Origin: Erythrobacter cryptus DSM 12079
Lineage (GTDB): Bacteria > Pseudomonadota > Alphaproteobacteria > Sphingomonadales > Sphingomonadaceae
Direction: 5' to 3'
DNA: 64,000 nt
NCBI RefSeq assembly: GCF_000422985.1
Contig: NZ_AUHC01000008.1
Coordinates: 62,001-126,000 of the forward strand
The notes below the pieces were generated by a model. That model saw nothing but the letters and a program-made list of their open reading frames with translations, made no database searches and was not told the origin of the DNA. Positions 34,806 through 53,842 of the stretch are shown here, one piece after another. Each line of letters begins with the position of its first letter. The first letter of the stretch is position 1. Made by a program: the position numbers and the translations under genes.

Positions 34806-36209
34806 ATGGAAAGTGATTGCACCGTGCCCGAGACCTGGACCCCGGAGAGCTGGAAGGCCTTTGAAGCGCGCCACCTGCCGCATTACGAGGATGCCGCGGC
34901 CCTCGCCGAGGTGGAGCGCACGCTTTCGACCTATCCGCCGCTGGTCTTTGCCGGCGAGGCGCGCGCATTGAAGGCCGAGCTTGCCGAGGTCGCGCGCGGG
35001 CGCGGCTTCCTGCTCCAGGGCGGGGACTGCGCCGAGAGCTTTGCCGAGTTCCACCCCAACAATATCCGCGACACCTTCCGCGTCATCCTGCAGATGGCGG
35101 TGGTGATGACCTTTGCCAGCAAGCGCCCGGTGGTGAAGGTCGGGCGCATGGCCGGGCAGTTCGCCAAGCCGCGCTCCTCGCCCACCGAGACCATCGGCGA
35201 TGTCACCCTGCCGAGCTATCTGGGCGACAATATCAACGGCATCGAGTTCGATCCCGAGGCGCGGCGCAACGATCCGCAGCGCATGGTGCGCGCCTATTCG
35301 CAGGCCGCGGCGACGCTCAACCTGCTGCGCGCCTTTGCCGGCGGGGGCTATGCCAATTTGCGCCAGGTGCACCAGTGGACGCTCGATTTCATGGGCCGCA
35401 CGCCGTGGACCGAGAAGTTCAGCGAGATGGCCGACCGCATCGGCGAGGCGCTCGATTTCATGGAGGCCTGCGGGGTCGATCCCGAAACCGTGCCGCAGCT
35501 CAAGGGCACCAGCTTCTACACCAGCCACGAGGCGCTGCTGCTGCCCTACGAACAGGCGATGACGCGGCGCGATTCGCTCACCGGCGCCTGGTATGCCACC
35601 AGCGCCCACATGCTCTGGATCGGCGATCGCACCCGCTTTCCGGGCAGCGCCCATGTCGAGTTCGCCCGCGGGATCGGCAATCCGCTGGGCATGAAATGCG
35701 GCCCCAGCCTCGAGCCCGATGTGCTGCTGCGGCTGCTCGACACGCTCAACCCCGCGCGCGAGCCGGGGCGCATCACCCTCATCAGCCGCTTCGGGCACGA
35801 CAAGGTCGAGGAAGGGCTTTCACGCCTGGTGCGCGCGGTGCAGCGCGAAGGCCACCCGGTGGTGTGGAGCTGCGATCCGATGCACGGCAATGTCGTCAAG
35901 TCCGAAAGCGGCTTCAAAACCCGGCCCTTTGATCGCATCCTCAAGGAGGTGAAGGGCTTCTTCGCCGTCCACCGGGCCGAAGGCTCGCACCCCGGCGGGA
36001 TCCATATCGAGATGACCGGGCAGGATGTGACCGAATGTGTCGGCGGCGCGGTGGCGATCACCGAGGAGCGCCTGGGCGACCGCTATCACACCCATTGCGA
36101 TCCCCGGCTCAACGCCGAACAGTCGCTGGAACTCGCCTTCCTTGTCGCCGAGATGCTCAACGCCGCGGCCGCCGGGCGCGAGAGCGAGCTGAGCGCCGAC
36201 GCGGCCTGA
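34806..36209 (+). CDS. Class II 3-deoxy-7-phosphoheptulonate synthase
   Basis: First shikimate-pathway enzyme (PEP plus erythrose-4-phosphate), 467 aa, the length of the plant-like class II type. Landmarks are [11 protein letters not shown] (about 69-79), [13 protein letters not shown] and the C-terminal [18 protein letters not shown]. The metal ligands (Cys in GDCAE, a His, a Glu and an Asp) appear present. Class I AroF/G/H motifs are absent. ATG 34806 has no strong Shine-Dalgarno. It stands alone, with its own likely promoter. Confidence 0.94.
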
Positions 36210-36269
36210 TCGGCGCCGGGCGCGCGCAGAGCGGCCCCTCGGCGGGCAAAAAGGGTTGATTTTGCGATA

Positions 36270-36296
36270 GCCCGCGGCTTCGTCCGGGCGTCTTTC
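36270..36296 (+). terminator. Weak terminator-like hairpin after DAHP synthase
   Basis: A 5-bp GC stem GCCCG/CGGGC (36270-36274 and 36285-36289) is followed by GTCTTTC. Stem and T-run are short, so termination is uncertain. Confidence 0.25.
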
Positions 36297-36367
36297 CTGT
36301 GTCATCACCTCAGGGCATGACATCGGGGGCGCGCGCGGCGCGCGGCAGAAGGGAGCACGGCGGCGCG

Positions 36368-37615
36368 ATGCAAGGCCAGCACCAGGCGTTCGAGCAGCAG
36401 GGGGACGCGGGCACCGGCCGCGCCGCGCGTTTTGCTGCGGTGCGCGCGCTCAGCGAGGCGCTGGCCGCACCGCTGAGCGAGGCCGATGCCTGCCTCCAGT
36501 CCATGCCCGATGCCTCGCCCGCCAAGTGGCATCTCGCGCACACCACCTGGTTCTGGGAAACCTTCCTCCTGCGCGATCACCTGCCGGGCTATCGCCTGTG
36601 GCGGGATGATTGGCCCTATCTGTTCAATTCCTACTACGAGGCCGAAGGGCCGCGCCTTGCCCGCCACCAGCGCGGGATGCTCTCGCGCCCCAGCATGGCC
36701 GAAGTGCTCGCCTGGCGCGCCCACGTGACCGAGGCGATGGCGCCGCTGCTCGCCGATCCGGCGCTTGGCGATCTGATCGCGCTGGGGATCGCGCACGAGG
36801 AGCAGCATATCGAGCTGCTGCTCACCGACATCAAACACGCCCTGTTCCTCAACCCGCTCGGCCCGGCGATGTGGGAGGGCCTGCCGCCCCCGCCGCCTGC
36901 CGCGCCTGCGCCGCCGCTCGGCTGGACTTTCCACCCGGGCGGGATCGTCGGCATCGGCCATGAGGGGACGGGATTTGCCTTCGACAACGAGGGCCCGCGC
37001 CACCGCGTGCTGATCGCGCCCTTCGCGCTCGCCGACCGGCTGGTGACGAACCGCGAGTGGGAGGCCTTCATTGCCGCGGGCGGCTATGCCGATCCGCGCC
37101 TGTGGCTTGCCGATGGCTGGGCCTGGGTGCAGCGCGAGGGCATCACCGCGCCGCTCTATTGGCGCGATGAGCTGCACTTTACCCATCAGGGCTGGCAGCC
37201 ACGCGACCCGCACGCACCAGTCACCCACATCTCCTATTTCGAGGCCGATGCCTATGCCACCTGGGTGGGGGCGCGCCTGCCGAGCGAGTTCGAATGGGAA
37301 GCGATCGCCGCTGATCACGATCCTGCCGCGGGCAACCAGCTCGGTGGGGCAGGGCCGGTGCTGCCGCGGGGGAGCGCGGGGCTGTTCGGCGATTGCTGGC
37401 AGTTTACCAGCTCGGCCTATCTGCCCTATCCGCGCTTCCGCCCGGCAGCCGGGGCGATCGGCGAATACAACGGCAAGTTCATGAGCGGGCAGGTGGTGCT
37501 GCGCGGCGCCTCCTGCGCCACGGTGCGCGGCCACGCCCGCGCCACCTATCGCAACTTCTTCTACCCCCACCAGCGCTGGCAGTTCACCGGCCTTCGCCTC
37601 GCACGGGATGCCTGA
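36368..37615 (+). CDS. egtB: Ergothioneine synthase EgtB (sulfoxide synthase)
   Basis: Iron-dependent oxygenase joining hercynine to a thiol (gamma-glutamylcysteine or cysteine) in ergothioneine biosynthesis, about 415 aa. The N-terminal DinB_2 domain has KWHLAHTTWFWE (54-64) and HEEQHIEL (143-150), giving the likely three-His iron site. The C-terminal formylglycine-generating-enzyme-like domain contains EFEWEA and the RGASCAT segment. ATG 36368 is my choice; in-frame starts at 36299 (GTG) and 36317 (ATG) would add a low-complexity N-terminus. It is coupled to egtD, 1 base away. Confidence 0.92.
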   Translation: MQGQHQAFEQQGDAGTGRAARFAAVRALSEALAAPLSEADACLQSMPDASPAKWHLAHTTWFWETFLLRDHLPGYRLWRDDWPYLFNSYYEAEGPRLARHQRGMLSRPSMAEVLAWRAHVTEAMAPLLADPALGDLIALGIAHEEQHIELLLTDIKHALFLNPLGPAMWEGLPPPPPAAPAPPLGWTFHPGGIVGIGHEGTGFAFDNEGPRHRVLIAPFALADRLVTNREWEAFIAAGGYADPRLWLADGWAWVQREGITAPLYWRDELHFTHQGWQPRDPHAPVTHISYFEADAYATWVGARLPSEFEWEAIAADHDPAAGNQLGGAGPVLPRGSAGLFGDCWQFTSSAYLPYPRFRPAAGAIGEYNGKFMSGQVVLRGASCATVRGHARATYRNFFYPHQRWQFTGLRLARDA

Positions 37616-37616
37616 G

Positions 37617-38603
37617 ATGACGATGCCAAAGGGCCTCAAGCTGGTGGAGCGCGATGCGGGCGGCGTTGATCCGGCGTTCCGTGCCGATGTGCTCATTGGC
37701 CTTGCGCAGCCGCAAAAGGCGGTGCCGGCGCGCTGGTTTTATGATGATGCCGGTTCCGCCCTGTTCGAGGCGATCACGCGCCTGCCCGAGTATTACCTTA
37801 CCCGCGCCGAGACCGCGATCCTCGAGCGCAGCGCCGGCAAGATGGCGGCGCTGATCGGGCCGGGGCGGGCGGTGGTCGAGTTCGGCTCGGGCTCCTCGCT
37901 CAAGACCCCGCTGCTGCTCGCCTCGATTGCCCCTGCGGCCTATGTCCCGATCGACATTTCCGGGGATTTCCTGCGCGCGTCGGCCGCAGCGCTGGCGGCC
38001 AAGTTCCCGGGCCTGCCGGTGCACCCGGTCGAGGCCGATTTCATGCGCCGGGTCGAATTGCCGGGCGAGGTCGCGGGCCTGCCCAAGCTCGGCTTCTTTC
38101 CCGGATCGACCATCGGCAATTTCGTGCCCGCCACCGCCACCGATCTGCTGCGCACCATGCGCGCCGCGCTGGGCGAGGGGGCGCTGCTGCTGATCGGTGT
38201 TGATCTGGTGAAGGACCGGCGCGCGCTCCTTTGTGCCTATGATGATGCTGAAGGGGTGACCGCGGCCTTTAACCGCAATCTCCTTTCTCGCATCAATCGC
38301 GAGCTTGAGGGCGATATCCCGGTTGATCGCTTTGCCCATCAGGCGCGCTGGAACGATGCCTATGCCCGGATCGAGATGCATCTTGCCGCGCAGGAAGACC
38401 TTGCCTTCAGCGTCAGCGGGAAGCGCTTTGCCATGCGCCGCGGCGAGACCATCCACACCGAGAACAGCCACAAGTTCACCCGCCGCTCGGCAGGCTTGCT
38501 GCTGGCCGCGGGCGGGTGGGAGCCGCGCGCCTGCTGGTACGATCCCGCGCGGCGCTTTGCCGTGCTGCTGGCCGAGGCCTGCCCGCCGCGTTCGGCGCCC
38601 TGA
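37617..38603 (+). CDS. egtD: L-histidine N-alpha-methyltransferase EgtD
   Basis: SAM-dependent methyltransferase making hercynine from histidine, 328 aa. The family pattern is ARWFYDDAGSALFEAITRLP (about 38-57), PEYYLTRAE, the SAM-binding VVEFGSGSS and a C-terminal IHTENSHKFT substrate-binding segment. It may start at ATG 37617 or 37608 (overlapping egtB). egtA, egtC and an adjacent canonical egtE are not in this cluster, as in many proteobacteria with the two-gene form. Confidence 0.93.
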   Translation: MTMPKGLKLVERDAGGVDPAFRADVLIGLAQPQKAVPARWFYDDAGSALFEAITRLPEYYLTRAETAILERSAGKMAALIGPGRAVVEFGSGSSLKTPLLLASIAPAAYVPIDISGDFLRASAAALAAKFPGLPVHPVEADFMRRVELPGEVAGLPKLGFFPGSTIGNFVPATATDLLRTMRAALGEGALLLIGVDLVKDRRALLCAYDDAEGVTAAFNRNLLSRINRELEGDIPVDRFAHQARWNDAYARIEMHLAAQEDLAFSVSGKRFAMRRGETIHTENSHKFTRRSAGLLLAAGGWEPRACWYDPARRFAVLLAEACPPRSAP

Positions 38604-39616: not shown

Positions 39617-41110
39617 TCAGCCCGCGGCGCGGCACTCCCGGATCGCGGCGATGATGCGCGCCATGTCGCTCTCGAGCCGGGCGGCGAGCGCGGCATCGTC
39701 GAGCCGGTCGAAGGCGCTGACCTGCGGCATCGCGATCCCAACCCGCAAGGTCGCACCCCAGCGCCCGTCGGGCAGCTTCACGCATTTGACCGGCTGGCCG
39801 AGCCGCACCCCGCGCCCGACGAGCGCGCGGTGCAGCGCCACCGCGGCATCGAGATCGGGGGCGCCGGGCTGCGGCGTCAAATCAATGGTTGAGAGCGTGC
39901 GCATCTCCACCGGGTGGGCATCGCCCTCGGCCCGCGCCCCCGGCTCGTAGGGCGCCAGCCGCCGCCCGCCGAGCGTCTCGACAAAGGCGGCGCGCACTGC
40001 GGCGTGGAAGGCCAGCACCACCCGCTCGACCCGCGGCAGGGCCAACGCCTGGAAGCGCTCGAGCTCGAAGATGCTCGCTTCGAGCCGCAGCAGCAGGCCG
40101 AGATTGGCCTCCTCGGGCAATTGCGCGGTGCCCGGCCACTCTGCGGGCCATTCGGCGCGGCGGAAGATCGCGGCAAAGCCGCTCGGCAGTTCGGCGGCTT
40201 CGGCGATCACCGCTTCGGGCACCAGGGCAAACCCGCTGAAGGGCGGGCCGCCCATGAACTTCGATCCGGTCAGCATGACGATGCAGCCGCGCGCCAGATA
40301 GGCGCGGATCGCCGCGCTGGTGATGCGCGCCTGGCAGGCATCGACGATGAAGCTGATCGCGCCGCCGTGGCGCGCCCGGAGCGCGTCGATATGGTCAAGA
40401 TGCGGCACCACCAGCCCGGTCTTGCTGCCGTGGAGCACGTGGACGAGGCTGTGCAGCCCCTGCGACCGGGCCTCGCTCACCGCTGCCTCGATCCCCGCGG
40501 CGATCTCGGCGGCACTGTAGGCGCGCCCGGCATCGTCGCGCACCGGCAGGTTGTGGAGCGCCACCCGGGCGGGCAGCGCGCCGCCGATCGGCGCGCCCTT
40601 GGTCACCGGCACCCCGCGCGCGGTCTCGCTCGCAAAGAACTGCCCGCGCGCCGAATAGATGCAGCCCGAGCCGACCTCGTCCGCCCCGATCAGGATGTTG
40701 CGGATGCCGCCCGCCGCGCGCCCCTTGGCCTCGGCAAGGCCGATATATTCCAGATCGGTGCCCGAGGCGGCAAACACCACCCCGATCGTGCGATCAAGGC
40801 CATAGGCCGCGCGGATGCGCGCGCGCAGCGCCTCGAGCGCCGCGGCATAGGCTTCCGGCGTGAGCGCATCGCCCGGGGCGAGCGCTTCGAGCCGGCCGAG
40901 GCAATGGGCAAAGGCATCGGCGGAAATGTCATTGGCGGTGGACGAGGCATAGGCGAGCGTCTCGACCGGCCAGGGCGAACTCATGTACTGGTTGCGCCGG
41001 GTGGCCGGATCGATGGCGATGCGCGCATCGCCGCCGCTGCTCAGCAGGCGGCCGAGCCGCTCATGCGGGGTCTCGCCGCCCGCGGCAGCGCGTGGGTGGG
41101 GCAGGGTCAT
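39617..41110 (-). CDS. Fold-type I PLP enzyme, class V aminotransferase-like
   Basis: PLP-dependent enzyme of 497 aa. The class V pattern is visible: phosphate-binding ASGTD (115-119), Asp257-x2-Gln260 (VDACQA) for the pyridine ring, and Lys284 in TGSKFMGGPPFSG as the Schiff-base lysine. It is longer than cysteine desulfurases or EgtE (about 370-400 aa), with extra N- and C-terminal segments. I cannot assign a reaction. It diverges from an ATP-grasp/nucleotidyltransferase operon and converges on the ergothioneine/FAD genes. Confidence 0.75.
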   Translation of the reverse strand: MTLPHPRAAAGGETPHERLGRLLSSGGDARIAIDPATRRNQYMSSPWPVETLAYASSTANDISADAFAHCLGRLEALAPGDALTPEAYAAALEALRARIRAAYGLDRTIGVVFAASGTDLEYIGLAEAKGRAAGGIRNILIGADEVGSGCIYSARGQFFASETARGVPVTKGAPIGGALPARVALHNLPVRDDAGRAYSAAEIAAGIEAAVSEARSQGLHSLVHVLHGSKTGLVVPHLDHIDALRARHGGAISFIVDACQARITSAAIRAYLARGCIVMLTGSKFMGGPPFSGFALVPEAVIAEAAELPSGFAAIFRRAEWPAEWPGTAQLPEEANLGLLLRLEASIFELERFQALALPRVERVVLAFHAAVRAAFVETLGGRRLAPYEPGARAEGDAHPVEMRTLSTIDLTPQPGAPDLDAAVALHRALVGRGVRLGQPVKCVKLPDGRWGATLRVGIAMPQVSAFDRLDDAALAARLESDMARIIAAIRECRAAG

Positions 41111-41217
41111 AGAAGCGCCCTTAGCCAAGCGCGCGCGCCAAGGGTAGCGGTTGATTGTCGCGCGCCCATCCTTTAGAGCGCGCCGCCTTCCTTGCCGCAA
41201 GAGACCCGGAAAACAAC

Positions 41218-42234
41218 ATGGCGAGCCCGACCATCCGCCCCACCTTGATCCCTGACGAGGCCAAGGCGCGCCTCACCGTGCTGTTCATCGCCAAGCACGC
41301 ACTGGGCGATGGCTCGCTCCACCCCGAGGACGGCAACCACGCGATCTATCACCACGAGGTGCGCACCATCCTTGAAGGGATTGGCATCGGCTTGAAGGTT
41401 GCCAACAGCTACAACGCCCTGTTCGAGCGGCCCGAGGGGGTGGATTTCGTCTTCCCGCTGCTCAACCGCGGGGGCTTTCTCAATTCGGAGATGCTGCTGC
41501 CGCTGCTGTGCACCCGGCTGGGCCTGCCCTATCTTGGCGCTACCCCGATCCTGCGCGGGCTTTCGGACGACAAGCACCTCTCCAAGCTCGAGGCGCGCGC
41601 GCGCGAGGTGCCGACCGCGCCTTGGGCGATCTTCCGCCGCGGCGCCCCGGTCGATGTCAGCCGCTGCCCGCCGGCCGAGCGCTGGGTGATCAAGCCCAAT
41701 GCCTCCTCGGCAAGCTGGGGGGTGCAGGATGCCTTCGACGCCGAAGGGCTGGAGCGCGCGATCGCCTCGGTCCATGCCGATGGGCACGATGCGATCGTCG
41801 AGCCGTTCCTCGTTGGCAGTGATGTCGAGGTGCCGGTGATCACCGTCAATGGCCGGCCGACGATCATGCCGATGATGCAGTTCCTGCAGGCCGATCCGGC
41901 GCATCTGCGCACCTATTACGAGAAGCGCGATCTGGTTGACCGTTCGAGCAAGTATAGCCTCGTGCCCTATGAGCGGCCCGAGATGGTGGCGCGCATCACC
42001 GCGATGACCGAGGCGCTGATCGGGATCTTCGAGCCGTTCGATTATGGCCGCTTCGAGTTCCGGGTCGATGATGCCAGCGGGCGGATCGATTTTCTCGAGG
42101 TCAATCTCAACTGCAACCTGTGGTCGCAGAAGGTGTTCGGCCGCTCGGCCCTGCTGGCGGGGATGAGCCAGGAGCAGCTGATCGAGACCATCCTTGCCGA
42201 AAGCATGGCGCGACAGGGCCTGTTTGCGCGATGA
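41218..42234 (+). CDS. ATP-grasp ligase, D-Ala-D-Ala ligase-like
   Basis: ATP-grasp enzyme of 338 aa. It has a D-Ala-D-Ala-ligase-type N-lobe (FPLLNRGGFLNSEMLLPLLC), WVIKPNASSASWGV for ATP binding and the metal motif EVNLNCN near the C-terminus. The glycine-rich loop of true Ddl (KPxxxGSSxG) reads KPNASSASWG. Together with the absence of mur genes this argues against cell-wall ddl. It probably links two amino or carboxylic acids. Its stop overlaps the next gene by 4 bases. Confidence 0.82.
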   Translation: MASPTIRPTLIPDEAKARLTVLFIAKHALGDGSLHPEDGNHAIYHHEVRTILEGIGIGLKVANSYNALFERPEGVDFVFPLLNRGGFLNSEMLLPLLCTRLGLPYLGATPILRGLSDDKHLSKLEARAREVPTAPWAIFRRGAPVDVSRCPPAERWVIKPNASSASWGVQDAFDAEGLERAIASVHADGHDAIVEPFLVGSDVEVPVITVNGRPTIMPMMQFLQADPAHLRTYYEKRDLVDRSSKYSLVPYERPEMVARITAMTEALIGIFEPFDYGRFEFRVDDASGRIDFLEVNLNCNLWSQKVFGRSALLAGMSQEQLIETILAESMARQGLFAR

Positions 42235-43034
42235 GCCGGGCCTCGGCGATCGTGCTCGCTGGGCGGCGCGACGGCGCGCTCGATCCGCTCGCCGCCGCGC
42301 ACGGCGTGGCCGACAAGTGCCTGGTGCCAGTGCTGGGCACGCCCTGCATCGAGCATGTGCTCGCTGCGCTCGCCGCGGCGCCCGAGATCGGCCAGATCGT
42401 GGTCTCGATCAACGATCCGGCGATCCTTGCCGGCCTGCCCATGGCCGAGCGGCTGATGGGCGAGGGGCGGTTGATCGCGATCAGGGCCGCAGCCAATCTT
42501 GCCGACAGCGTGATCGAGGCAGCCGGACGGGCGCCCTTTCCGCTGCTGGTGACCACCGCGGACAATGTGCTCATCACGCCCGAATCGATCGCGGCGCTGA
42601 TCGCCGGGGCGGGCGATGCCGATGCCGCAGCGGCCTTTGCCCGCAAGGCCGATATCCTTGCCGCCCACCCCGAAGGCCAGCGGCGCTTCTATGAATTTGC
42701 CGATGATGGCTATTCCAACTGCAACACCTACTGGATCGCGCGCAGCGATGTTCTCAGGGTGGCGGAGATCTTCCGCGAGGGCGGGCAATTTGCCAAGCAG
42801 CCGCGTCGGGTGATCGGCGCCTTCGGCCTCATCAACACGCTGATGTTCCGCTGGGGGTGGCTCAGCCTCGAGGCGGCGATGCGGCGGGTGTCGCGGCGGA
42901 TGGGCCTAACCCTCGTGCCGGTGGTGCTCGCGGATGGGAGCTATGCCATCGATGTCGACAATGCGCGCACCCACGCCTGCGCCAGCGAGATCATGGCCCG
43001 GCGCCGTCAGGCCGCGAGCGCCGCGGGGCAATAG
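42231..43034 (+). CDS. MobA-like nucleotidyltransferase
   Basis: NTP-transferase domain protein of 267 aa. The N-terminal IVLAGRRDG (variant of the LAGGxxxR loop) and ADKCLVPVLGTPCIEHVL supply the nucleotide-binding residues. TTADNVL (about 104-110) carries the metal-binding Asp. The C-terminal part (about 170-250) is not typical of MobA, so molybdopterin use is unlikely. It is coupled to the ATP-grasp gene by a 4-base overlap, and its 3' end overlaps the convergent halogenase by 28 bases. Its product may be an NDP-activated small molecule. Confidence 0.78.
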   Translation: MSRASAIVLAGRRDGALDPLAAAHGVADKCLVPVLGTPCIEHVLAALAAAPEIGQIVVSINDPAILAGLPMAERLMGEGRLIAIRAAANLADSVIEAAGRAPFPLLVTTADNVLITPESIAALIAGAGDADAAAAFARKADILAAHPEGQRRFYEFADDGYSNCNTYWIARSDVLRVAEIFREGGQFAKQPRRVIGAFGLINTLMFRWGWLSLEAAMRRVSRRMGLTLVPVVLADGSYAIDVDNARTHACASEIMARRRQAASAAGQ

Positions 43035-44518
43035 CGCGCCAGATATTCGCCATGCCCCGGCATGGCGCCCACGAGATAGCGGATCGAGCGCTCCATCTCG
43101 TTGACCTCATGCGCGGTCGTGGCCGGATCGAGCGCATCGGCCATGGCATTGTGGCTGCCCATCTCGATCCCCTGGCCCATCATCACCGCCGCCCAGCTGG
43201 TCTCGGTGAACAGCTCGTCCTCCTCGCGGAAGATCTGCCCGTTGGCCTTGAACAGCTCGACCTTCTCGGTGAGCGTCTCGGGCACCTCCATGGTGCGGAC
43301 ATGGTTCCAGAAGTCCGAATCATCGCGGCTCGTGGCGTTGTAGTGGAGGATCAGGAAATCCCGGATGCGGGCATATTCGCGCCCCGTCAGCCTGTTGAAG
43401 GTATCCTCCTGCACCTTGGTGATGCCCTCGAGCGAGAGGAGCGAGATCAGCTTGTCGATCCCGGTGTTGATGAGGTGGATCGAGGTGGATTCGAGCGGCT
43501 CCATGAAGCCCGCGGCAAGGCCGAGGGCGACGACGTTCTTGTTCCAGAACTTCTTGCGCCGCCCGGTGACAAAGCGCAGCCAGTTGGGCTCGGCCTGGGG
43601 TTTGCCGGCGATGTTGCCAACAAGGATGTCGAGCGCTTCGTCATCTTCCATGAAGGCGCTGCAATAGACATGGCCATTGCCGTTGCGGTGCTGGAGCGGC
43701 ACCTGCCATTGCCAGCCGGCGCGGTGCGCGGTCGCGCGGGTGAAGGGCGGGGGCGGGCTGCCATCCTCGCGCAGGCAGGGAAGGGCCACCGCACGGTTGC
43801 AGGGCAGCCAGTGACTCCAGTCCTCATAACCGGTCTTTAGTGCCTGTTCGATCAAGAGGCCGCGAAAGCCCGAGCAATCGATGAACAGGTCGCCCGCAAA
43901 GCTGCGCCCGTCCTCGAGCCGCACGCTGGTGACAAAGCCGCTCTGGCCATCGAGCGCGACATCGACAACCTTGCCCTCCTCGCGCACCACCCCGCGCGCC
44001 TCGGCAACGCGGCGCAGATAGGCAGCATAGCGGCCCGCATCGAGGTGATAGGCATAGTTGACCGGGGGCAGATCGTCGCGGCGATAATCCTGCGTGCGGG
44101 CGAACTTGCCGAAACAGGCGGCCATGGTCTCGAGGTTGAACACCTGAATCGGGCGCGGATCGCCGGCCTTGGCCATGCGGTGCCAGACATGGTGGAAGCT
44201 GATCCCCCCCATCGAATAGCCATAGGCGCCGAAGGGGTGGATATAGCTGTCGCCGATCCGGCCCCAGTTTTCAAACTGGATGCCGAGCTTGAAGGTGCCG
44301 CCGACCGCGCTCAGCATGTCTGCCTCGTTGATGCCGAGCAATTCGTTGAAGCCAACGAAGGGTGGAATCGTCGCTTCGCCCACGCCCACGGTGCCGATCG
44401 CCTCGGATTCGATCAGCACGATTTCGAGCGGCCGCCCGGCCTTGATGCGCGAGAGCGCGGCGGCCGCCATCCACCCGGCGGTGCCGCCCCCGACGATGAC
44501 AATCCGTTCAATCGCCAT
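43007..44518 (-). CDS. Flavin-dependent tryptophan halogenase family protein
   Basis: 503 aa. The motifs are complete for the PrnA/RebH family: FAD site GGGTAGW (10-16), GEATIP (48-52 region), catalytic-type Lys77 (GTFKLGI), the halogenase motif Trp269-x-Trp271-x-Val-Pro274, and Glu343 in the EPLESTSI loop. A separate flavin reductase is expected elsewhere. Family members beside TonB receptors in sphingomonads and Caulobacter have no known product. It diverges from the TonB receptor and shares a LacI-type operator, so it should be induced with the glucan genes. Confidence 0.9.
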   Translation of the reverse strand: MAIERIVIVGGGTAGWMAAAALSRIKAGRPLEIVLIESEAIGTVGVGEATIPPFVGFNELLGINEADMLSAVGGTFKLGIQFENWGRIGDSYIHPFGAYGYSMGGISFHHVWHRMAKAGDPRPIQVFNLETMAACFGKFARTQDYRRDDLPPVNYAYHLDAGRYAAYLRRVAEARGVVREEGKVVDVALDGQSGFVTSVRLEDGRSFAGDLFIDCSGFRGLLIEQALKTGYEDWSHWLPCNRAVALPCLREDGSPPPPFTRATAHRAGWQWQVPLQHRNGNGHVYCSAFMEDDEALDILVGNIAGKPQAEPNWLRFVTGRRKKFWNKNVVALGLAAGFMEPLESTSIHLINTGIDKLISLLSLEGITKVQEDTFNRLTGREYARIRDFLILHYNATSRDDSDFWNHVRTMEVPETLTEKVELFKANGQIFREEDELFTETSWAAVMMGQGIEMGSHNAMADALDPATTAHEVNEMERSIRYLVGAMPGHGEYLARYCPAALAA

Positions 44519-44609
44519 GCCTTTTTCCTCTCCCGCGCGGCCACGCACCGGCTCTGGTGTGGGCCTTGGGCTTCCTTCCCGACTGTTGCCAAGATGCAAT
44601 ATGAACGGC

Positions 44610-44650
44610 GGATTACAAGTCTTGAGAACGCTCTCAAAATGCGCTAAGCC
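44610..44650. promoter_or_regulatory. Divergent promoters sharing one LacI-type operator
   Basis: The palindrome TGAGAACGCTCTCA (44623-44636; TTGAGA...TCTCAA including outer bases) has the central CG typical of LacI-family operators. Plus strand: TTGAGA (44622-44627), 17-base spacer, TAAGCC (44645-44650) for the TonB receptor. Minus strand: TTGAGA (44637-44632), 16-base spacer, TAATCC (44615-44610) for the halogenase. Each operator arm is thus a -35 box, so a bound repressor would silence both genes. Confidence 0.65.
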
Positions 44651-48024: not shown

Positions 48025-49005
48025 ATGAGGCGGGCCGGGTTGGCACGCATTGCGGCAGGGCTTGGCGCCCTGCTGCTGGGCGGGGGCGCCGCTGCGCCCC
48101 CGCCTTCGGGTGCCCCAGCCGATCCGCTCGCCGCGGCCGGCTGGGAGCTGGTGTGGGCCGACGAGTTCGAGGGCGATGCGCTCGATCGCAGCAAGTGGAC
48201 GCCCGAGGTCTCGTGCTGGGGCGGGGGCAATGGCGAGCGGCAGTGCTATACCGACCGGCCCGAGAACATCGCGGTCGAAGGCGGCCTCCTGCTCCTCAAG
48301 GCGCGCAAGGAGCGCTTTGCCGGCCCGGCGCGCCCGCCCGAGATCGCGGGCCGCGACAATCCCACGCTGGTGCAGTCGCACACTTCGGGCAAGGTGCGCA
48401 CCATCGGCCTGCACGCCTGGCGCTATGGCCGGATCGAGGCGCGCGCCAGGGTGCCCGCCGGGCAGGGCACCTGGCCGGCGATCTGGATGATGCCCGACAA
48501 CCCCGCCTATGGCCCCTGGCCGCGATCGGGCGAGATCGACATTCTCGAGGCGGTCAATATCGGCGCGAGGTGCAAGCAATGCGCGGGCGGGCGCGAGAAC
48601 CGCACCATCAGCGCGCTTCATTTCGGCGATTTTCCGCCCGCCAACCGCTTTATCGACAGCCGCACGGCGCTTCCCGATGGCGCCCTGCCTTCGGCGGATT
48701 TCCACGTCTATGCGGTGGAATGGGGCGCCGGGCTGATCCGCTTCCTCGTCGATGGCCGGGTGCATCTCACCGTCACCGCCGACCAGTGGAGCACCGCCTC
48801 GCCGCGCGCGCGGGGGCGGCCCCATGCCCCCTTTGACCAGCCCTTCTATCTCATGGCCAACCTTGCCGTGGGCGGGCGGCTGGCCGAGGAGAACAATGCA
48901 AAGGGGCTTGCAGCGGCGAGCTTTCCCGCGCAATTCGCGATCGACTGGATCAGGGTCTATCGCTGCGCCCGCGACCCGGTGACGGGCCGGGCCTGCATGG
49001 GCTAG
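48025..49005 (+). CDS. Secreted GH16 beta-glucanase (laminarinase-type)
   Basis: Glycoside hydrolase family 16 endo-enzyme of 326 aa with an N-terminal signal (about 1-25). The catalytic motif SGEIDILEAVN gives nucleophile Glu170, Asp172 and acid/base Glu175. An N-terminal WADEFEGDALDRSKW and WPAIWMMPDNP match laminarinase-like members. It probably cleaves beta-1,3(-1,4)-glucan outside the outer membrane. The bulged E-I-D-I-L-E form is typical of the laminarinase/lichenase branch rather than kappa-carrageenase. It is cotranscribed with the receptor. Confidence 0.92.
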   Translation: MRRAGLARIAAGLGALLLGGGAAAPPPSGAPADPLAAAGWELVWADEFEGDALDRSKWTPEVSCWGGGNGERQCYTDRPENIAVEGGLLLLKARKERFAGPARPPEIAGRDNPTLVQSHTSGKVRTIGLHAWRYGRIEARARVPAGQGTWPAIWMMPDNPAYGPWPRSGEIDILEAVNIGARCKQCAGGRENRTISALHFGDFPPANRFIDSRTALPDGALPSADFHVYAVEWGAGLIRFLVDGRVHLTVTADQWSTASPRARGRPHAPFDQPFYLMANLAVGGRLAEENNAKGLAAASFPAQFAIDWIRVYRCARDPVTGRACMG

Positions 49006-49040: not shown

Positions 49041-50102
49041 ATGGCGCGCAGGCGCAAGAATGTCACCATCAGGGACGTGGCCGAGGATGCCGGGGTCTCG
49101 TTGCAGACGGTGAGCCGGGTCATCAACGACGGGCCCAATGTCCGCCCGCATCTGCGCGAGCGGGTGCGCGCCTCGATCAAGAAGATGGGCTATGTGCCGA
49201 GCCTTGCCGCCCAGCGGATGAGCGGCTCGCGTTCCTATATCCTCCTTGCGATCAACGACCGCGAGCGCACACTCGCCGACTGGCGCGAGCGGCGCGGCAC
49301 CGACTGGGTCGATCAGATGCTGCTCGGCGGGGTGCTCACCGGCGCGCCGCATGGCTACAGGATGATGGTGGAGCTGATCGACACCCGCTCCGAGCATGTC
49401 GAGCGCGAGCTGGGCGCGGCGATCTCGGCGCTCCAGCCCGATGGGGTGATCCTCACCCCGCCGCACTCGGAAAATCCGCTGATCACCGCGCTGCTCGAGG
49501 ATCGCGGTATCCGTTTTGCCCGGATCGGTTCGAAGGCCCGAGGGCCGGGGATCGCGCTGACCATGGGGGACGAGGGCGCCGCCGCGCTGGCGACCCGCCA
49601 TCTCATCGAACTTGGCCATCGCCGCATCGCCATGATCGCCGGGCCGGAGCAATATAGCCTCAGCGGCTGGCGCATCACCGGCTGGCGCGCTGCGCTGGCC
49701 GAGGCGGGGCTGCGCGATGAGGGCCTGCTGGCGCGCGGCGATTTCGGCTTCGAGAGCGGGCTTGCCGCCGCCCGCGCGCTCATCGCCCGCGCGCCGCGCC
49801 CCAGCGCGATCATCGCTTCTTCCGACCAGATGGCGCTCGCCACGCTCGAGGCGGCGCGCGAGGCTGGCCTTGCGGTGCCCGATGATCTCTCGCTCATCTC
49901 CTTCGACAACACCCCGATCGTGCGCTTCACCCAGCCGCCGCTCACCGCGATCGACCAGCCGATCGCCGAGACCGTGAGCCGCGCGGTCGAACTGTTGATC
50001 GCGCGGGATGAGGAGGCAGGCGCGCAGGGCGTGATCGAGGTTCCCGCGGCGCTCGTCCCCCGTTCCTCGACCGCGGCGCCGCGCGCGGTGGACAGGGCTT
50101 GA
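49041..50102 (+). CDS. LacI family transcriptional regulator
   Basis: 353 aa. The N-terminal LacI HTH (about 8-60) reads VTIRDVAEDAGVSLQTVSRVIN with the hinge-helix region AAQRMSG. The periplasmic-binding-protein-like sugar domain covers about 65-335. It most likely represses the operators at 44623-44636 and 51387-51400. A glucan-derived oligosaccharide or glucose is the inferred inducer. Its stop overlaps a TTG start of the MFS gene, so regulator and transporter are coupled. Confidence 0.92.
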   Translation: MARRRKNVTIRDVAEDAGVSLQTVSRVINDGPNVRPHLRERVRASIKKMGYVPSLAAQRMSGSRSYILLAINDRERTLADWRERRGTDWVDQMLLGGVLTGAPHGYRMMVELIDTRSEHVERELGAAISALQPDGVILTPPHSENPLITALLEDRGIRFARIGSKARGPGIALTMGDEGAAALATRHLIELGHRRIAMIAGPEQYSLSGWRITGWRAALAEAGLRDEGLLARGDFGFESGLAAARALIARAPRPSAIIASSDQMALATLEAAREAGLAVPDDLSLISFDNTPIVRFTQPPLTAIDQPIAETVSRAVELLIARDEEAGAQGVIEVPAALVPRSSTAAPRAVDRA

Positions 50103-51310
50103 GCGCAAGCGCGTCTGCCAGTCCGGCGCCCCAGCCGCGCTGGTTCCTGGCGCTGTTCGCGCTCGCCTTTGCCGGGGGGGCGGTCGCCTATGTCCCGCTG
50201 CTTACCGTGCTGCTGCCGCAGCGCCTTGCCGAATTGCAGGGCGGCGAGGATGTCGCCGCGCTCGCCCAGGTGACCTTTCTTGGCGCGCTGGCGGCGAGCC
50301 TTGCCAATATCGCCGCCGGGACGCTGAGCGACGTGAGCGGCACGCGGCGCCCATGGATCCTTGCCGGCCTCGTGATCTCGGGCCTCTTGCTGGTGGCGCT
50401 AGAGGACGCGCGCAGCCTCGATGAGGTCGTGCTCCTGATCATGGCCTGGCAGGTGGGCCTCAACCTGATGCTCGGCCCGCTTCTGGCCTGGGCCGGCGAT
50501 TGCTTTCCCGACAGCCAGAAGGGCGAGCTTGGCGGGGCGCTGGCGCTGGCCCCGGCGCTGGGGGCGCTGGCGGGATCGCTGGTGACCTATGGCGGGCTGG
50601 TTGCGCCCGCGGCGCGGCTCGAGCTGGTGGCGCTGCTGGTGGCGGCGCTGGTGCTCCCGGCGGTGCTGCTGGGCGGCGGGCGCGCGCGGGCCGAGCTGAT
50701 GGCGCCGCGCCCGGCCGTGGCCGCGCCCGAAGACGCGGCGTCGCCACTGCCCTGGCGCGGGGTGGTCGCAAGGATGTGGGCGGCGCGGCTGCTGGTGCAG
50801 GTTGCCGAAGGGGGGATGTTTGCCTTCCTGCTCTATTGGCTGCGCGCACTCGCCCCCGGCTATCCCGAGCACGGCGCGGCCAATATCTTCAGCCTGGTGC
50901 TGCTCTCGGCGGTACCGCTGTCGCTGCTGGTCGGGCGCTGGTCGGATCGCCATGGCCGCCCGGTGCTCCCGCTGGTGCTCGCCGCGCTCGCCTGTGCCGC
51001 TGGGCTTGCGGTGATGGCGGCGGCCTCGGGCCTCGCCATGGCAATCACGGGTTATGTGCTCTTTGCGCTGTCGGCGGCGGTGTTCCTCGCGCTTCATGCG
51101 GGGCACACCCTGCGGGTGCTGCCCGCGCCGCAGCACCGCGGGCGCGACCTTGGCCTGTTCAACCTCACCAACACCGTGCCGGGCATGGTGATGCCGGGGC
51201 TGACGGTGCTGTTGGTGCCGCATTTCGGCTATTCCGGGCTGTTCGTGCTGTTCGCGGCGCTGGCGCTGGCAAGCGCAGCGCTGCTCGCCGGGACGCGCCG
51301 CCCCGCCTGA
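50099..51310 (+). CDS. MFS transporter (sugar uptake candidate)
   Basis: Major facilitator protein of 403 aa with about 12 membrane helices. The loop ASLANIAAGTLSDVSGTRRPW (about 62-81) matches the MFS A-motif position, and LVGRWSDRHGRP repeats it in the second half. It starts at TTG 50099, overlapping the lacI-type gene by 4 bases; no ATG is available near the first helix. By context it moves mono- or oligosaccharide released by the glucanases across the inner membrane, which is inferred. Confidence 0.87.
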   Translation: MSASASASPAPQPRWFLALFALAFAGGAVAYVPLLTVLLPQRLAELQGGEDVAALAQVTFLGALAASLANIAAGTLSDVSGTRRPWILAGLVISGLLLVALEDARSLDEVVLLIMAWQVGLNLMLGPLLAWAGDCFPDSQKGELGGALALAPALGALAGSLVTYGGLVAPAARLELVALLVAALVLPAVLLGGGRARAELMAPRPAVAAPEDAASPLPWRGVVARMWAARLLVQVAEGGMFAFLLYWLRALAPGYPEHGAANIFSLVLLSAVPLSLLVGRWSDRHGRPVLPLVLAALACAAGLAVMAAASGLAMAITGYVLFALSAAVFLALHAGHTLRVLPAPQHRGRDLGLFNLTNTVPGMVMPGLTVLLVPHFGYSGLFVLFAALALASAALLAGTRRPA

Positions 51311-51386
51311 GCGTGGCCCCATCCGCGCACAAGCCCGGGCCGCGGCGATCCGGGCCTTGCCAAAGGCAGCGCGCCCCGGCATATCC

Positions 51387-51400
51387 TGATAACGTTCTCA
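51387..51400. promoter_or_regulatory. Second LacI-type operator, upstream of GH3 gene
   Basis: TGATAACGTTCTCA differs from the site at 44623-44636 at two positions and from a perfect palindrome at one. It sits 37-50 bases before the GH3 start. A possible promoter TTGCCA (51357-51362) with TATCCT (51382-51387) directly precedes it, so binding would repress the gene. Confidence 0.62.
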
Positions 51401-51436
51401 ATAATTCGCGACACGGTCTTGGGAGGGACTGGCCCG

Positions 51437-53842
51437 ATGCAGCGCAAATGGCTCGGCATGCTAGCCGCGACGGTGGCTCTTGCACCCCTGCTCGCAGGCT
51501 GCGCCGCAGCACCCGGAGGCACGGCGGCGGCGCCATCGGCTGGCAGCGCTGCGCCGCTCGCCCCGGCGATGCACACCAGCCCCGAGGCCCTGCTCGCGCG
51601 CATGAGCCTCGAGCGCAAGGTCGCCCAGCTGATCATGCCCGATATCAGCGCGATCACGCCCGAGGACGTGCGCACCTATCGCTTCGGCGCGATCCTCAAC
51701 GGCGGCAATTCCGGCCCCTATGGCAATGACAAGGCCCCGGCGCGCGATTGGCTCACGCTGGCCGATGCCTTCTGGGAGGCCTCGCGCGCGCCCCTGCCCG
51801 GGGGCGAACCGGCGATTCCGACGCTGTGGGCGACCGATGCGGTCCACGGCCATGCCAATGTGCCGGGGGCGACGGTGTTTCCGCACAACATCGCGCTTGG
51901 CGCTACCGCTGATGCCGATCTGGTGCGCCGCATCGGCGCTGCCACCGCGCGCGAGATCGCGGTGACCGGGCTCGACTGGACCTTTGCTCCCACGGTGGCG
52001 GTGGCGCAGGATCTGCGCTGGGGCCGCACCTATGAGAGCTTCTCCTCCGATCCGGCGCTGGTCACCCGCCTCGGCGTGGCGATGATCGAGGGGCTGCAGG
52101 GCCGCCTGGGCGATCCCGACTTCCTCGGCCCCGGCAAGGTTGCCGCCACGGCCAAGCATTTCTTCGGCGATGGCGGCACCGAGCAGGGGGTCGATCAGGG
52201 CGATGTCAACGGCGATCTTGCCGAGCTGATGGCGGTGCACGCCGCGCCATACCCTGCTGCGATCAAGGCCGGGGTGCTGAGCGTAATGGCCAGCTTCAAT
52301 TCGATCAACGGCACCAAGATGCACGGCAACAGGGCGCTGCTCACCGATGTGCTGCGCGGCGAGCTGGGTTTTGCCGGAGTGGTGGTGGGCGACTGGAACG
52401 GCCACGGCCAGATCCCCGGATGCAGCAATGCCGATTGCCCCGCCGCGCTGCTCGCCGGGCTTGATGTCTATATGGTGCCCGAGGACTGGAAGGGGTTGCA
52501 CGCCGCGCTGGTGCGGCAGGTGCGGGAGGGCACCATCCCGCTGGCCCGGCTCGACGAGGCGGTGCTGCGGGTGCTGCGGCTGAAGCAGGCGCTCGGCCGC
52601 CTCGAGGGCGCCGCCATGCCCTCGGCGCGGCCGCTTGCCGGGCGCTGGGAGCTGCTCGGCGCGCCCGAACACCGCGCCCTCGCGCGCGAGGCGGTGGCCA
52701 AATCCCTGGTGATCCTCAAGAACACGGGCGTGCTGCCGATCCGCCCGGGCGCGCGCATCGCGGTGGCCGGGCGCGCGGCCGACAACATCCCGCAGCAGGC
52801 CGGGGGCTGGTCGGTCACCTGGCAGGGCGGCGGCGATTTGACGGCGGCCGATTTTCCCGGCGCGACCTCGATCTGGCAGGGGATCGCCGCGGCCGCGCGC
52901 GCGGCAGGTGGCGAGGCGGTGCTGGTGCCATCCGCGGACGCCGCGGCAGCGGACGGCGCGGCACCTGATGTTGCCATCGTGGTGTTCGGCGAGGAGCCCT
53001 ATGCCGAGTTCGTCGGTGATCGCAAGGATCTCGCCCTGCGCGACGAGGAGGGTCTCTCGCTGCTGCGCGCCTTCCGCGCCCGCTCCGTGCCGACCGTGGC
53101 GGTGTTCCTCTCGGGCCGGCCGCTGTGGATGAACCGCGAAATCAATGCCGCCGATGCCTTCGTCGCCGCGTGGCTGCCGGGGAGCGAGGGGGCAGGGGTG
53201 GCCGACGTGCTGTTCGGCACCGCCGCGCCCAGCGGGCGGCTGCCCTTCGCCTGGCCAGCAAGCTGCGATGCAGCCGAGGTGCGCGCCGGGCGGGCGACGC
53301 TCTATGCGCGCGGCTTCGGGCAGGGCTATGCCGCCGGGGTGCCCGCCGCACCGCTCGATGAGACCTGCGCCCAGCTTCAGGCAGAGGGCGGGGCGGTGTG
53401 GTTCGGCGCCGGGCGGTTGGGGCCGCGGGTGCAGGCGCTGGCGGGCAACGCCGTGCTTCCTGACCTGCGCGGGCGCGGCAACGGGATCGTGGCGAGCGGG
53501 ATCGACCGGCGCGCGCAGGAAGATGCGCGGCGCATCGCCTTCGGCCCTGGCTCGCAGCTCAGCCTCGTCGGCCCGCCGAGCGGCGGGGCCTTCCGCATCA
53601 CCTATCAGGTCAGCACCCGCCCGGCCGGGCCGGTCACCATCACTTCCGGCGCGCAGGCGCTCGACATTGCGCGGCAGCTGGCGCTCGCCGAGGGCAAGGG
53701 CTGGCGCGAGATGGTGCTCACCCGCGCCTGCCTCGGCGAGACCGGGGAGCGGCTGACGATCGCCTCCGAGGCGCCCTTTGCTCTCGAGATCAGCACCATC
53801 ACCCGCGACGAGGCCGCCGCGCCGCGTGAGTGCTCGTTCTAG
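51437..53842 (+). CDS. GH3 beta-glucosidase lipoprotein
   Basis: Glycoside hydrolase family 3 exo-enzyme of 801 aa. The lipobox LAGC (Cys22) anchors it to the envelope. The first (TIM-barrel) domain has KHFFGDGGTEQG and nucleophile Asp319 (VVGDWNGHG). The second domain follows (about 410-630), then a C-terminal extension of about 170 aa. Motifs exclude NagZ and favour glucan beta-1,3/1,4-glucosidases. It probably trims oligosaccharides to glucose in the periplasm. ATG 51437. Its stop overlaps the convergent DUF1501 stop by 4 bases. Confidence 0.93.
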   Translation: MQRKWLGMLAATVALAPLLAGCAAAPGGTAAAPSAGSAAPLAPAMHTSPEALLARMSLERKVAQLIMPDISAITPEDVRTYRFGAILNGGNSGPYGNDKAPARDWLTLADAFWEASRAPLPGGEPAIPTLWATDAVHGHANVPGATVFPHNIALGATADADLVRRIGAATAREIAVTGLDWTFAPTVAVAQDLRWGRTYESFSSDPALVTRLGVAMIEGLQGRLGDPDFLGPGKVAATAKHFFGDGGTEQGVDQGDVNGDLAELMAVHAAPYPAAIKAGVLSVMASFNSINGTKMHGNRALLTDVLRGELGFAGVVVGDWNGHGQIPGCSNADCPAALLAGLDVYMVPEDWKGLHAALVRQVREGTIPLARLDEAVLRVLRLKQALGRLEGAAMPSARPLAGRWELLGAPEHRALAREAVAKSLVILKNTGVLPIRPGARIAVAGRAADNIPQQAGGWSVTWQGGGDLTAADFPGATSIWQGIAAAARAAGGEAVLVPSADAAAADGAAPDVAIVVFGEEPYAEFVGDRKDLALRDEEGLSLLRAFRARSVPTVAVFLSGRPLWMNREINAADAFVAAWLPGSEGAGVADVLFGTAAPSGRLPFAWPASCDAAEVRAGRATLYARGFGQGYAAGVPAAPLDETCAQLQAEGGAVWFGAGRLGPRVQALAGNAVLPDLRGRGNGIVASGIDRRAQEDARRIAFGPGSQLSLVGPPSGGAFRITYQVSTRPAGPVTITSGAQALDIARQLALAEGKGWREMVLTRACLGETGERLTIASEAPFALEISTITRDEAAAPRECSF

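Follow-up and report, generated by a model that had tools for sequence, protein, structure and literature searches.

The flavin-dependent halogenases (FDHs) PrnA, RebH, PyrH, and Thal work in natural-product pathways. Another type of FDH has been described from BrvH and Xcc4156. According to the reports on these enzymes (PMC5945002 and PMC7336383, both in excerpt), BrvH halogenates indole and not tryptophan, prefers bromide, and is dead when its Lys is mutated to Ala. BrvH is very slow in vitro (2.5 mU/mg), its host has no known halogenated product, and its authors doubted that indole is the native substrate (PMC5945002). The Xcc4156 report gives the native substrates of this type as unknown and describes the active site of both enzymes as open and solvent-accessible (PMC7336383); in both reports the lack of a known halogenated product makes the native substrate hard to find. 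The word TonB is absent from the main text of either paper. Carbohydrate utilization (CUT) loci (Blanvillain et al., 2007; PMC1790865, in excerpt) combine a TonB-dependent receptor (TBDR), degradative enzymes, an inner-membrane transporter, and a sugar regulator, and TBDRs import plant and algal material; its main text mentions neither halogenase nor tryptophan. Here we describe a CUT locus that includes a gene for an FDH of the BrvH/Xcc4156 type. In a 64-kb stretch of Erythrobacter cryptus DSM 12079 (contig NZ_AUHC01000008.1, positions 62,001 to 126,000; hereafter the window), the gene for a BrvH/Xcc4156-type FDH of 503 amino acids (43007..44518, minus strand) is divergent to that of a TBDR of the TonB-Xanth-Caul subfamily TIGR01782 (44713..48012, plus strand). 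Judged by gene neighborhoods here and in related genomes, the FDH appears to be a standing accessory of TonB-Xanth-Caul receptors and not a stray natural-product enzyme. The FDH type and CUT loci are already known. A halogenase as regular accessory of one receptor subfamily looks new, and no paper describing the pairing was found in the open-licence literature as judged by title and start of abstract, with subscription journals outside the scope.

To count the pairing among named genomes, we used the best 80 of 591 confirmed stretches. Within the stretches retrieved, a TBDR gene stands beside the FDH gene in 75 of these 80 relatives, and in 63 of 68 once the window's own orthologs are removed, with a median gap of 183 bp. 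The hosts are alpha-, beta-, and gammaproteobacteria and include Caulobacter, Brevundimonas, Sphingomonas, Pelomonas, Pseudoxanthomonas, Gilvimarinus, Microbulbifer, and Aliiglaciecola. For two of the five relatives without a TBDR, the contig is no longer than 10 kb. The TBDR profile for these loci was built from FDH-adjacent receptors and missed other types; locus L073, for example, has two receptor-like open reading frames (ORFs) by eye. The association was also measured in ten genomes with the independent TIGR01782 model. There, 34 of 37 FDH clusters and 62 of 65 FDH genes are at most 8 kb from such a receptor, against an expectation of about 1.6 clusters. The 65 genes were obtained from 74 PF04820 rows by leaving out 7 that were weak or short and joining two split genes. 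The receptors number 66, all above the model's cut-off and two joined from pieces, and their counts are lower bounds in G185 and G266, where scoring covered 39 of 95 and 39 of 61 candidates. An FDH gene is found within 8 kb of 37 of the 66, and on a receptor tree linked and unlinked receptors tend to separate (4 label changes compared with a mean of 18.7, and at least 13, in 500 shuffles). The genome that contains the window has seven PF04820 genes in three clusters, each adjoining one of its three TIGR01782 receptors (three of three both ways). Eighteen regions around weaker PF04820 matches (about 335–470 bits; a sample that left out G111, G228, G142, and G174) had no TBDR, but those genomes may have few TBDRs, so we give this comparison little weight. 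The counts do not bear out a pairing peculiar to a single carbohydrate locus; such halogenases are paired with TonB-Xanth-Caul receptors generally.

The two genes are arranged in several ways. Among the 75 loci with a TBDR, the halogenase gene follows the receptor gene on the same strand in 37, the genes are divergent in 28 and convergent in 8, and the halogenase gene comes before the receptor gene in 2. A preliminary description of this DNA had proposed a survey of how often such pairs share an operator. Because 37 of the 75 loci are in tandem on one strand, pairing does not need a common operator, and we rejected operator sharing as the general reason for it. Other palindromes were seen next to FDH-linked receptors. 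In the genome of the window, ATGATAGCGCTAACAT (L019:13571-13586) lies 5' of another FDH-linked receptor; it is a different LacI-like palindrome, so the FDH–TBDR pairs of this genome appear to be under different repressors. No comparable operator-like site was noted in the two intervals next to the L018 receptor. A perfect 20-bp palindrome, AATGTTTCACGTGAAACATT, is found between the receptor and halogenase genes of that locus (L018:12965-12984) and contains what we take to be the ParB site parS.

The window locus has the make-up of a CUT locus. Its TBDR (PF07715/PF00593) scores 576.1 bits with TIGR01782, above the curated cut-off of 310. The genes that follow are, like the TBDR gene, on the strand opposite to the FDH gene. 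They encode a laminarinase-like glucanase of glycoside hydrolase (GH) family 16 (48025..49005, plus strand; PF00722, E 4e-14), a LacI-family regulator that is presumably a repressor (49041..50102, plus strand; PF00356/PF13377), an MFS inner-membrane transporter (50099..51310, plus strand; PF07690), and a GH3 beta-glucosidase whose start codon is uncertain (51419..53842, plus strand; PF00933/PF01915). The best NCBIfam match of the last is an exo-beta-1,3/1,6-glucosidase, at 267 bits far under the cut-off of 1330. As in the published CUT loci, receptor, glycoside hydrolases, transporter, and regulator adjoin one another. Because both GH16 and GH3 genes are present, we infer that the substrate is a laminarin-type beta-glucan. 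Family-profile scans, made without a dedicated cluster finder, revealed no polyketide synthase or nonribosomal peptide synthetase genes among the scanned neighbors of the FDH gene, and this agrees with the earlier statement that no natural-product genes surround it.

The FDH and TBDR genes have between them a perfect palindromic LacI-type putative operator, TTGAGAACGCTCTCAA (44622..44637), in which the arms TTGAGA and TCTCAA flank a 4-bp centre, ACGC. This is the sole zero-mismatch match to TTGAGAN4TCTCAA in the window. When up to 3 mismatches are allowed, the window has 11 matches compared with a mean expectation of 7.84, and 11 were reached in 17 of 100 shuffles. Because this is not above chance, the tolerant search alone proves nothing and rarity needs a strict test. 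At up to 1 mismatch the pattern TGAGAACGYTCTCA occurs at two sites only in the 2.95-Mb genome, 44623-44636 and 51387-51400. The second of these belongs to another putative operator, CTGATAACGTTCTCAA (51386..51401), located 5' of the GH3 gene. With up to 2 mismatches the genome gives 17 rows (8 forward and 9 reverse) versus 2 for a reversed control pattern. The scoring pattern used to count sites in relatives has 12 occurrences in 1.20 Mb of non-orthologous loci and 2 in 3.86 Mb of shuffled sequence. A regulator gene and conserved palindromes 5' of target genes are what characterize a LacI-type regulon, and both are seen here. The window locus resembles LacI-family local regulons in having an internal regulator gene, a 16-bp palindrome, and two sites. 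It is unlike them in that one site lies between receptor and halogenase genes and carries a -35-like TTGAGA on both strands. The position and conservation of the palindrome suggest that the LacI protein of the locus binds it.

TTGAGA can be read on both strands of the palindrome, and a promoter is predicted on either side. The predicted TBDR promoter (44622..44650, plus strand) consists of TTGAGA (44622-44627), a 17-bp spacer, and TAAGCC (44645-44650). The predicted FDH promoter (44610..44637, minus strand) consists of TTGAGA (44637-44632), 16 bp, and TAATCC (44615-44610), and is weaker. These predictions were compared across 28 of 29 orthologous regions anchored on the operator; the remaining one, L113, was left out because the start finder gave no anchor. 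In the flanks of the 16-mer (45 bp on one side and 60 on the other) the only invariant bases are a TA on the receptor strand, 17 bp from TTGnnA, in 28 of 28 loci, the position that the leading two bases of a -10 box would take. In the window, TTGNNA is accompanied by TA at that spacing in 2 of 93 cases on the plus strand and 2 of 109 on the minus strand, or about 2%. On the FDH strand an A at -11 (16-bp spacing) is present in 93% of the 28 loci and the other -10 positions are variable. The preliminary description had proposed that one palindrome between the divergent genes provides the -35 box of both. The palindrome is exact, rare in the genome, and conserved in orthologs; its -35 role is well supported for the receptor gene and, from these alignments, plausible though weaker for the halogenase gene. 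A second, half-overlapping AAATGAACGTTCACAT-like site was seen in 12 of the 28 orthologous regions, approximately 21–24 bp further on the halogenase side. Across these regions (L107-L118 and L050-L065) the main operator arms vary by subgroup, with GAGA/TCTC changing to GTGA or GTTA/TCAC types.

The arrangement is retained in relatives. Both putative operators, including the counterpart of the GH3 site, are found in 15 of 15 other same-genus loci in which the locus is readable, and the FDH–TBDR site is found in 12 of 12 further orthologs; there are no near-copies at 97% identity between or within these two sets. The FDH, TBDR, LacI (syntenic in all), MFS, and GH3 genes are kept in 15 of the 15 same-genus loci and a GH16 gene is recognizable in 10. 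In L063 a Cupin_8/JmjC gene occupies the place of GH16 between receptor and LacI. Within the same-genus loci the FDH ranks first in median identity to the window (84.9% versus 63.0–78.1% for the other locus proteins) and has the lowest pN/pS (0.205 versus 0.315–0.407), of which only the ranking counts because synonymous change is high. By synteny and conservation, the FDH is part of the glucan locus. This supports the earlier claim of a halogenase gene in a LacI-gene-bearing glucan locus, with an operator-like site in common with the receptor gene, and comparative footprinting bears out both that site and the promoter spacing on the receptor side.

The FDH protein matches PF04820 over residues 5–464 of 503 (E 1.6e-188, 627.7 bits compared with a cut-off of 21). 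The ORF (43007-44599) opens with TTG. From the sequence, the ATG at 44518 is the likelier start. This gives an N-terminus of MAIERIVIVGGG, with GAGAGGAAAAAGG standing ahead of it and no signal peptide obvious by eye. Numbered from this ATG, the defining motifs of the class are in place: GGGTAG (GxGxxG), Lys77, WQWQVP (W269-P274), and Glu343 within EPLEST. Lys77, Glu343, and WxWxVP are therefore intact, at the positions claimed before. All 40 of 40 high-scoring copies likewise have Lys77, both Trp, and Glu343, as do 138 of 168 homologues in the named loci. The nearest solved enzymes by sequence are 9luq (Pseudoalteromonas), BrvH (6frl), and Xcc4156 (6y1w), all matching at full length (E 1e-153 to 9e-141), and the E-values for BrvH (3e-147) and Xcc4156 (9e-141) are far stronger than that for PyrH (2e-81), other tryptophan halogenases being weaker still. 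The same three lead when the predicted structure (mean pLDDT 87.1) is compared by VIA Z (6y1w 51.0, 9luq 49.5, 6frl 48.2; next 46.4 and below). This places the window FDH with BrvH and Xcc4156 over the free-tryptophan halogenases, by a large gap in E-value and a small one in Z (48.2 to 46.4). It has the same catalytic residues as its three nearest relatives, although it is a separate, uncharacterized sequence 46–48% identical to them in structural alignment. PrnA, RebH, PyrH, and Thal share the fold and the catalytic Lys/Glu/WxWxIP with it but are clearly further away. The YYHGF segment of PyrH, which we take to be the part that grips free tryptophan, is not conserved in the alignment of the window FDH. 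The intact catalytic residues and the published activity of close homologues suggest that this is a working BrvH/Xcc4156-type enzyme, and the Lys/Glu/WxWxVP set together with BrvH activity speaks for halogenation.

Together, these data suggest the following mechanism. A LacI-family repressor would hold the locus at two operators, one in the -35 region between the TBDR and FDH genes and one 5' of the GH3 gene. From the position and conservation of the operators, an inducing sugar, a glucan breakdown product, would bind the repressor and turn on receptor and halogenase together. The FDH would work in the cytoplasm and halogenate, with bromination preferred. As target we would expect an indole- or phenol-like group, or more broadly an aromatic one, carried by a small or peptidic partner of the uptake machinery that is synthesized or taken in upon receptor induction; this is our best guess. 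Taken whole, with a LacI-controlled glucan locus whose FDH is a working receptor accessory brominating an uptake partner, we regard this reading as evenly balanced between right and wrong, and its regulatory half as much more probable than its chemical half.

Several results weigh against this reading. There is no FDH gene within 8 kb of 29 of the 66 TIGR01782 receptors, so an FDH is not needed for every receptor of this type. The FDH-side promoter is weak, with a poor -10 apart from the A at -11, and the operator scoring pattern was made after the sites had been seen. In the homologous locus of another genus of the order (G028/L064), the FDH gene is right behind the TBDR gene on the same strand and there is no such operator between them. 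Two further results concern the receptor polypeptide as target. A comparison of 92 linked receptors (the window's own excluded) with 20 of the 29 unlinked ones, all TIGR01782 in the latter case, revealed no aromatic, His, or Cys column conserved in the former yet absent from the latter. Five columns have such residues in at least 80% of linked receptors and none is specific to them, the nearest being a Phe (0.80 versus 0.45). FDH and TBDR distances are correlated overall (Mantel r 0.63, permuted maximum 0.08) and less so in non-orthologous pairs (r 0.26), and co-divergence was not detected among paralogous loci within genomes (r 0.28, p 0.25, 19 pairs). With no linked-specific column and no matching of the two sets of distances within genomes, these two tests gave no support for the receptor polypeptide as substrate. 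A receptor-related substrate, as guessed earlier, would agree with the linkage, but the search for aromatic, His, or Cys residues conserved only in linked receptors found none.

These two results also bear on what survives best among the alternatives, namely that the FDH, like JmjC (Cupin_8) and DUF6445 oxygenases, modifies side chains of locus-encoded proteins in the cytoplasm before export, as a step in maturation of the receptor or another envelope protein. We consider this doubtful, given that linked receptors have no conserved aromatic, His, or Cys target and that co-divergence within genomes is not tight. It would account for a linkage that tracks the receptor family whatever glycoside hydrolases adjoin (GH16/GH3, GH10, GH13, or GH30), for the recurrence of the oxygenases in the same loci, and for the open site of Xcc4156 and BrvH (PMC7336383). 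In the ten genomes, 7 of 15 SapC, 9 of 13 Cupin_8 (5 weak rows of 18 having been left out), and 4 of 7 DUF6445 genes are within 5 kb of an FDH gene. With these proportions we rejected the three families as obligate partners of the FDH, and none of them is found in the 64-kb window. Single-sequence searches of the 80 named loci, which miss distant members, gave Cupin_8 in 18, DUF6445 in 9, and SapC in 1. For DUF6445 (PF20043), a domain of unknown function, an alignment of L018:8949-9638 with 12 relatives has an invariant HxD..H..R set, and a structural model (pLDDT 94.3) matches 2-oxoglutarate (2OG)-Fe(II) oxygenases first (best E 8e-5). The structural matches include protein prolyl hydroxylases (for example Tpa1 and OGFOD1) as well as small-molecule enzymes. 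DUF6445 is thus predicted to have a 2OG-Fe(II) oxygenase fold.

FDH genes themselves often occur in rows. At least three homologues are present in 28 of the 80 loci, and 26 of these 28 arrays have exactly one degenerate copy, meaning that at least one residue among Lys77, the Trp pair, and Glu343 is lost. The degenerate copy is mostly second in the row (A-d-A-A in 13 arrays and A-d-A in 9, where d is the degenerate copy). Of the two exceptions, one carries a pair of flagged copies, of which one is at a contig end; the other has none but includes a cut copy. No degenerate copies were found in the 52 loci with one or two homologues. Further degenerate copies are L019:8803-10272, L067:8193, L068:8208, L072:7994, L074:9074, L075:5742, and L088:10341, with Lys changed to Ser, Arg, and others or with WxWxIP or Glu lost; the 28 arrays counted above are among L107-L186. 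Because the position of this copy is conserved and its sequence is loose, the pattern suggests a structural or regulatory partner. As in the arrays, a second halogenase gene lies upstream of brvH (PMC5945002, in excerpt). We tentatively propose, as a possibility that falls short of probable, that BrvH/Xcc4156-type FDHs, rather than being natural-product enzymes, are dedicated partners of TonB-Xanth-Caul receptors in a tailoring module with JmjC/Cupin_8 and DUF6445 2OG oxygenases and sometimes SapC, that in larger loci they form a hetero-oligomer around the one degenerate halogenase, and that halogenation would be routine in proteobacterial polysaccharide feeding.

A third explanation is detoxification or signaling, in which plant or algal glycans bring with them an aromatic compound that the FDH halogenates. 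Aromatic decoration is not expected on alpha-amylase glycans, yet FDH genes also stand beside receptors with alpha-amylase genes (L018), and we think this explanation unlikely. Its support comes from the indole-type activity of BrvH (PMC5945002) and from the plant and algal material that TBDRs import (PMC1790865).

The preliminary description had also allowed for non-halogenating chemistry. On this account the flavoenzyme would, in vivo, oxidize or hydroxylate its substrate, or release hypohalite or peroxide, within a sugar-induced metabolism. The very slow halogenation by BrvH in vitro, the lack of a halogenated product from its host (PMC5945002), and the persistence of degenerate copies in arrays would all fit. 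We keep it as a rival with rather poor prospects, because the intact Lys/Glu/WxWxVP set and the activity of BrvH favor halogenation and the four catalytic residues are retained in most of the copies counted above. Finally, a chance neighbor with a fortuitous palindrome is barely credible and was rejected, for although sites within 3 mismatches are as frequent in the window as chance predicts, the palindrome at up to 1 mismatch is rare genome-wide, site and synteny are kept in 27 further loci, and FDH–TBDR linkage is general.

The recurrent pairing is a new lead on what BrvH/Xcc4156-type enzymes do. It places an FDH family beside a defined class of sugar receptors, here under one putative operator, and narrows an open-ended substrate search to growth on glycans. 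If the proposed accessory role is true, a chemical step is added to carbohydrate uptake in sphingomonads, caulobacters, and marine gammaproteobacteria. A possible phenotype for the family is seen in a colony-morphology mutant screen of a freshwater Sphingomonas, where one hit was in a gene called tryptophan halogenase (RS06730; PMC11340318, in excerpt).

Other genes of the window were noted in passing. A 527-amino-acid protein (39617-41200, minus strand) looks by eye like a pyridoxal phosphate enzyme and has no Pfam or NCBIfam match. Beside it on the plus strand are genes for a D-Ala-D-Ala-ligase-like ATP-grasp protein and a MobA-like NTP transferase (41155-42234 and 42210-43034). Further away, 34806-38603 encodes a class II DAHP synthase and, behind it, the ergothioneine-type pair EgtB and EgtD, all above curated cut-offs.

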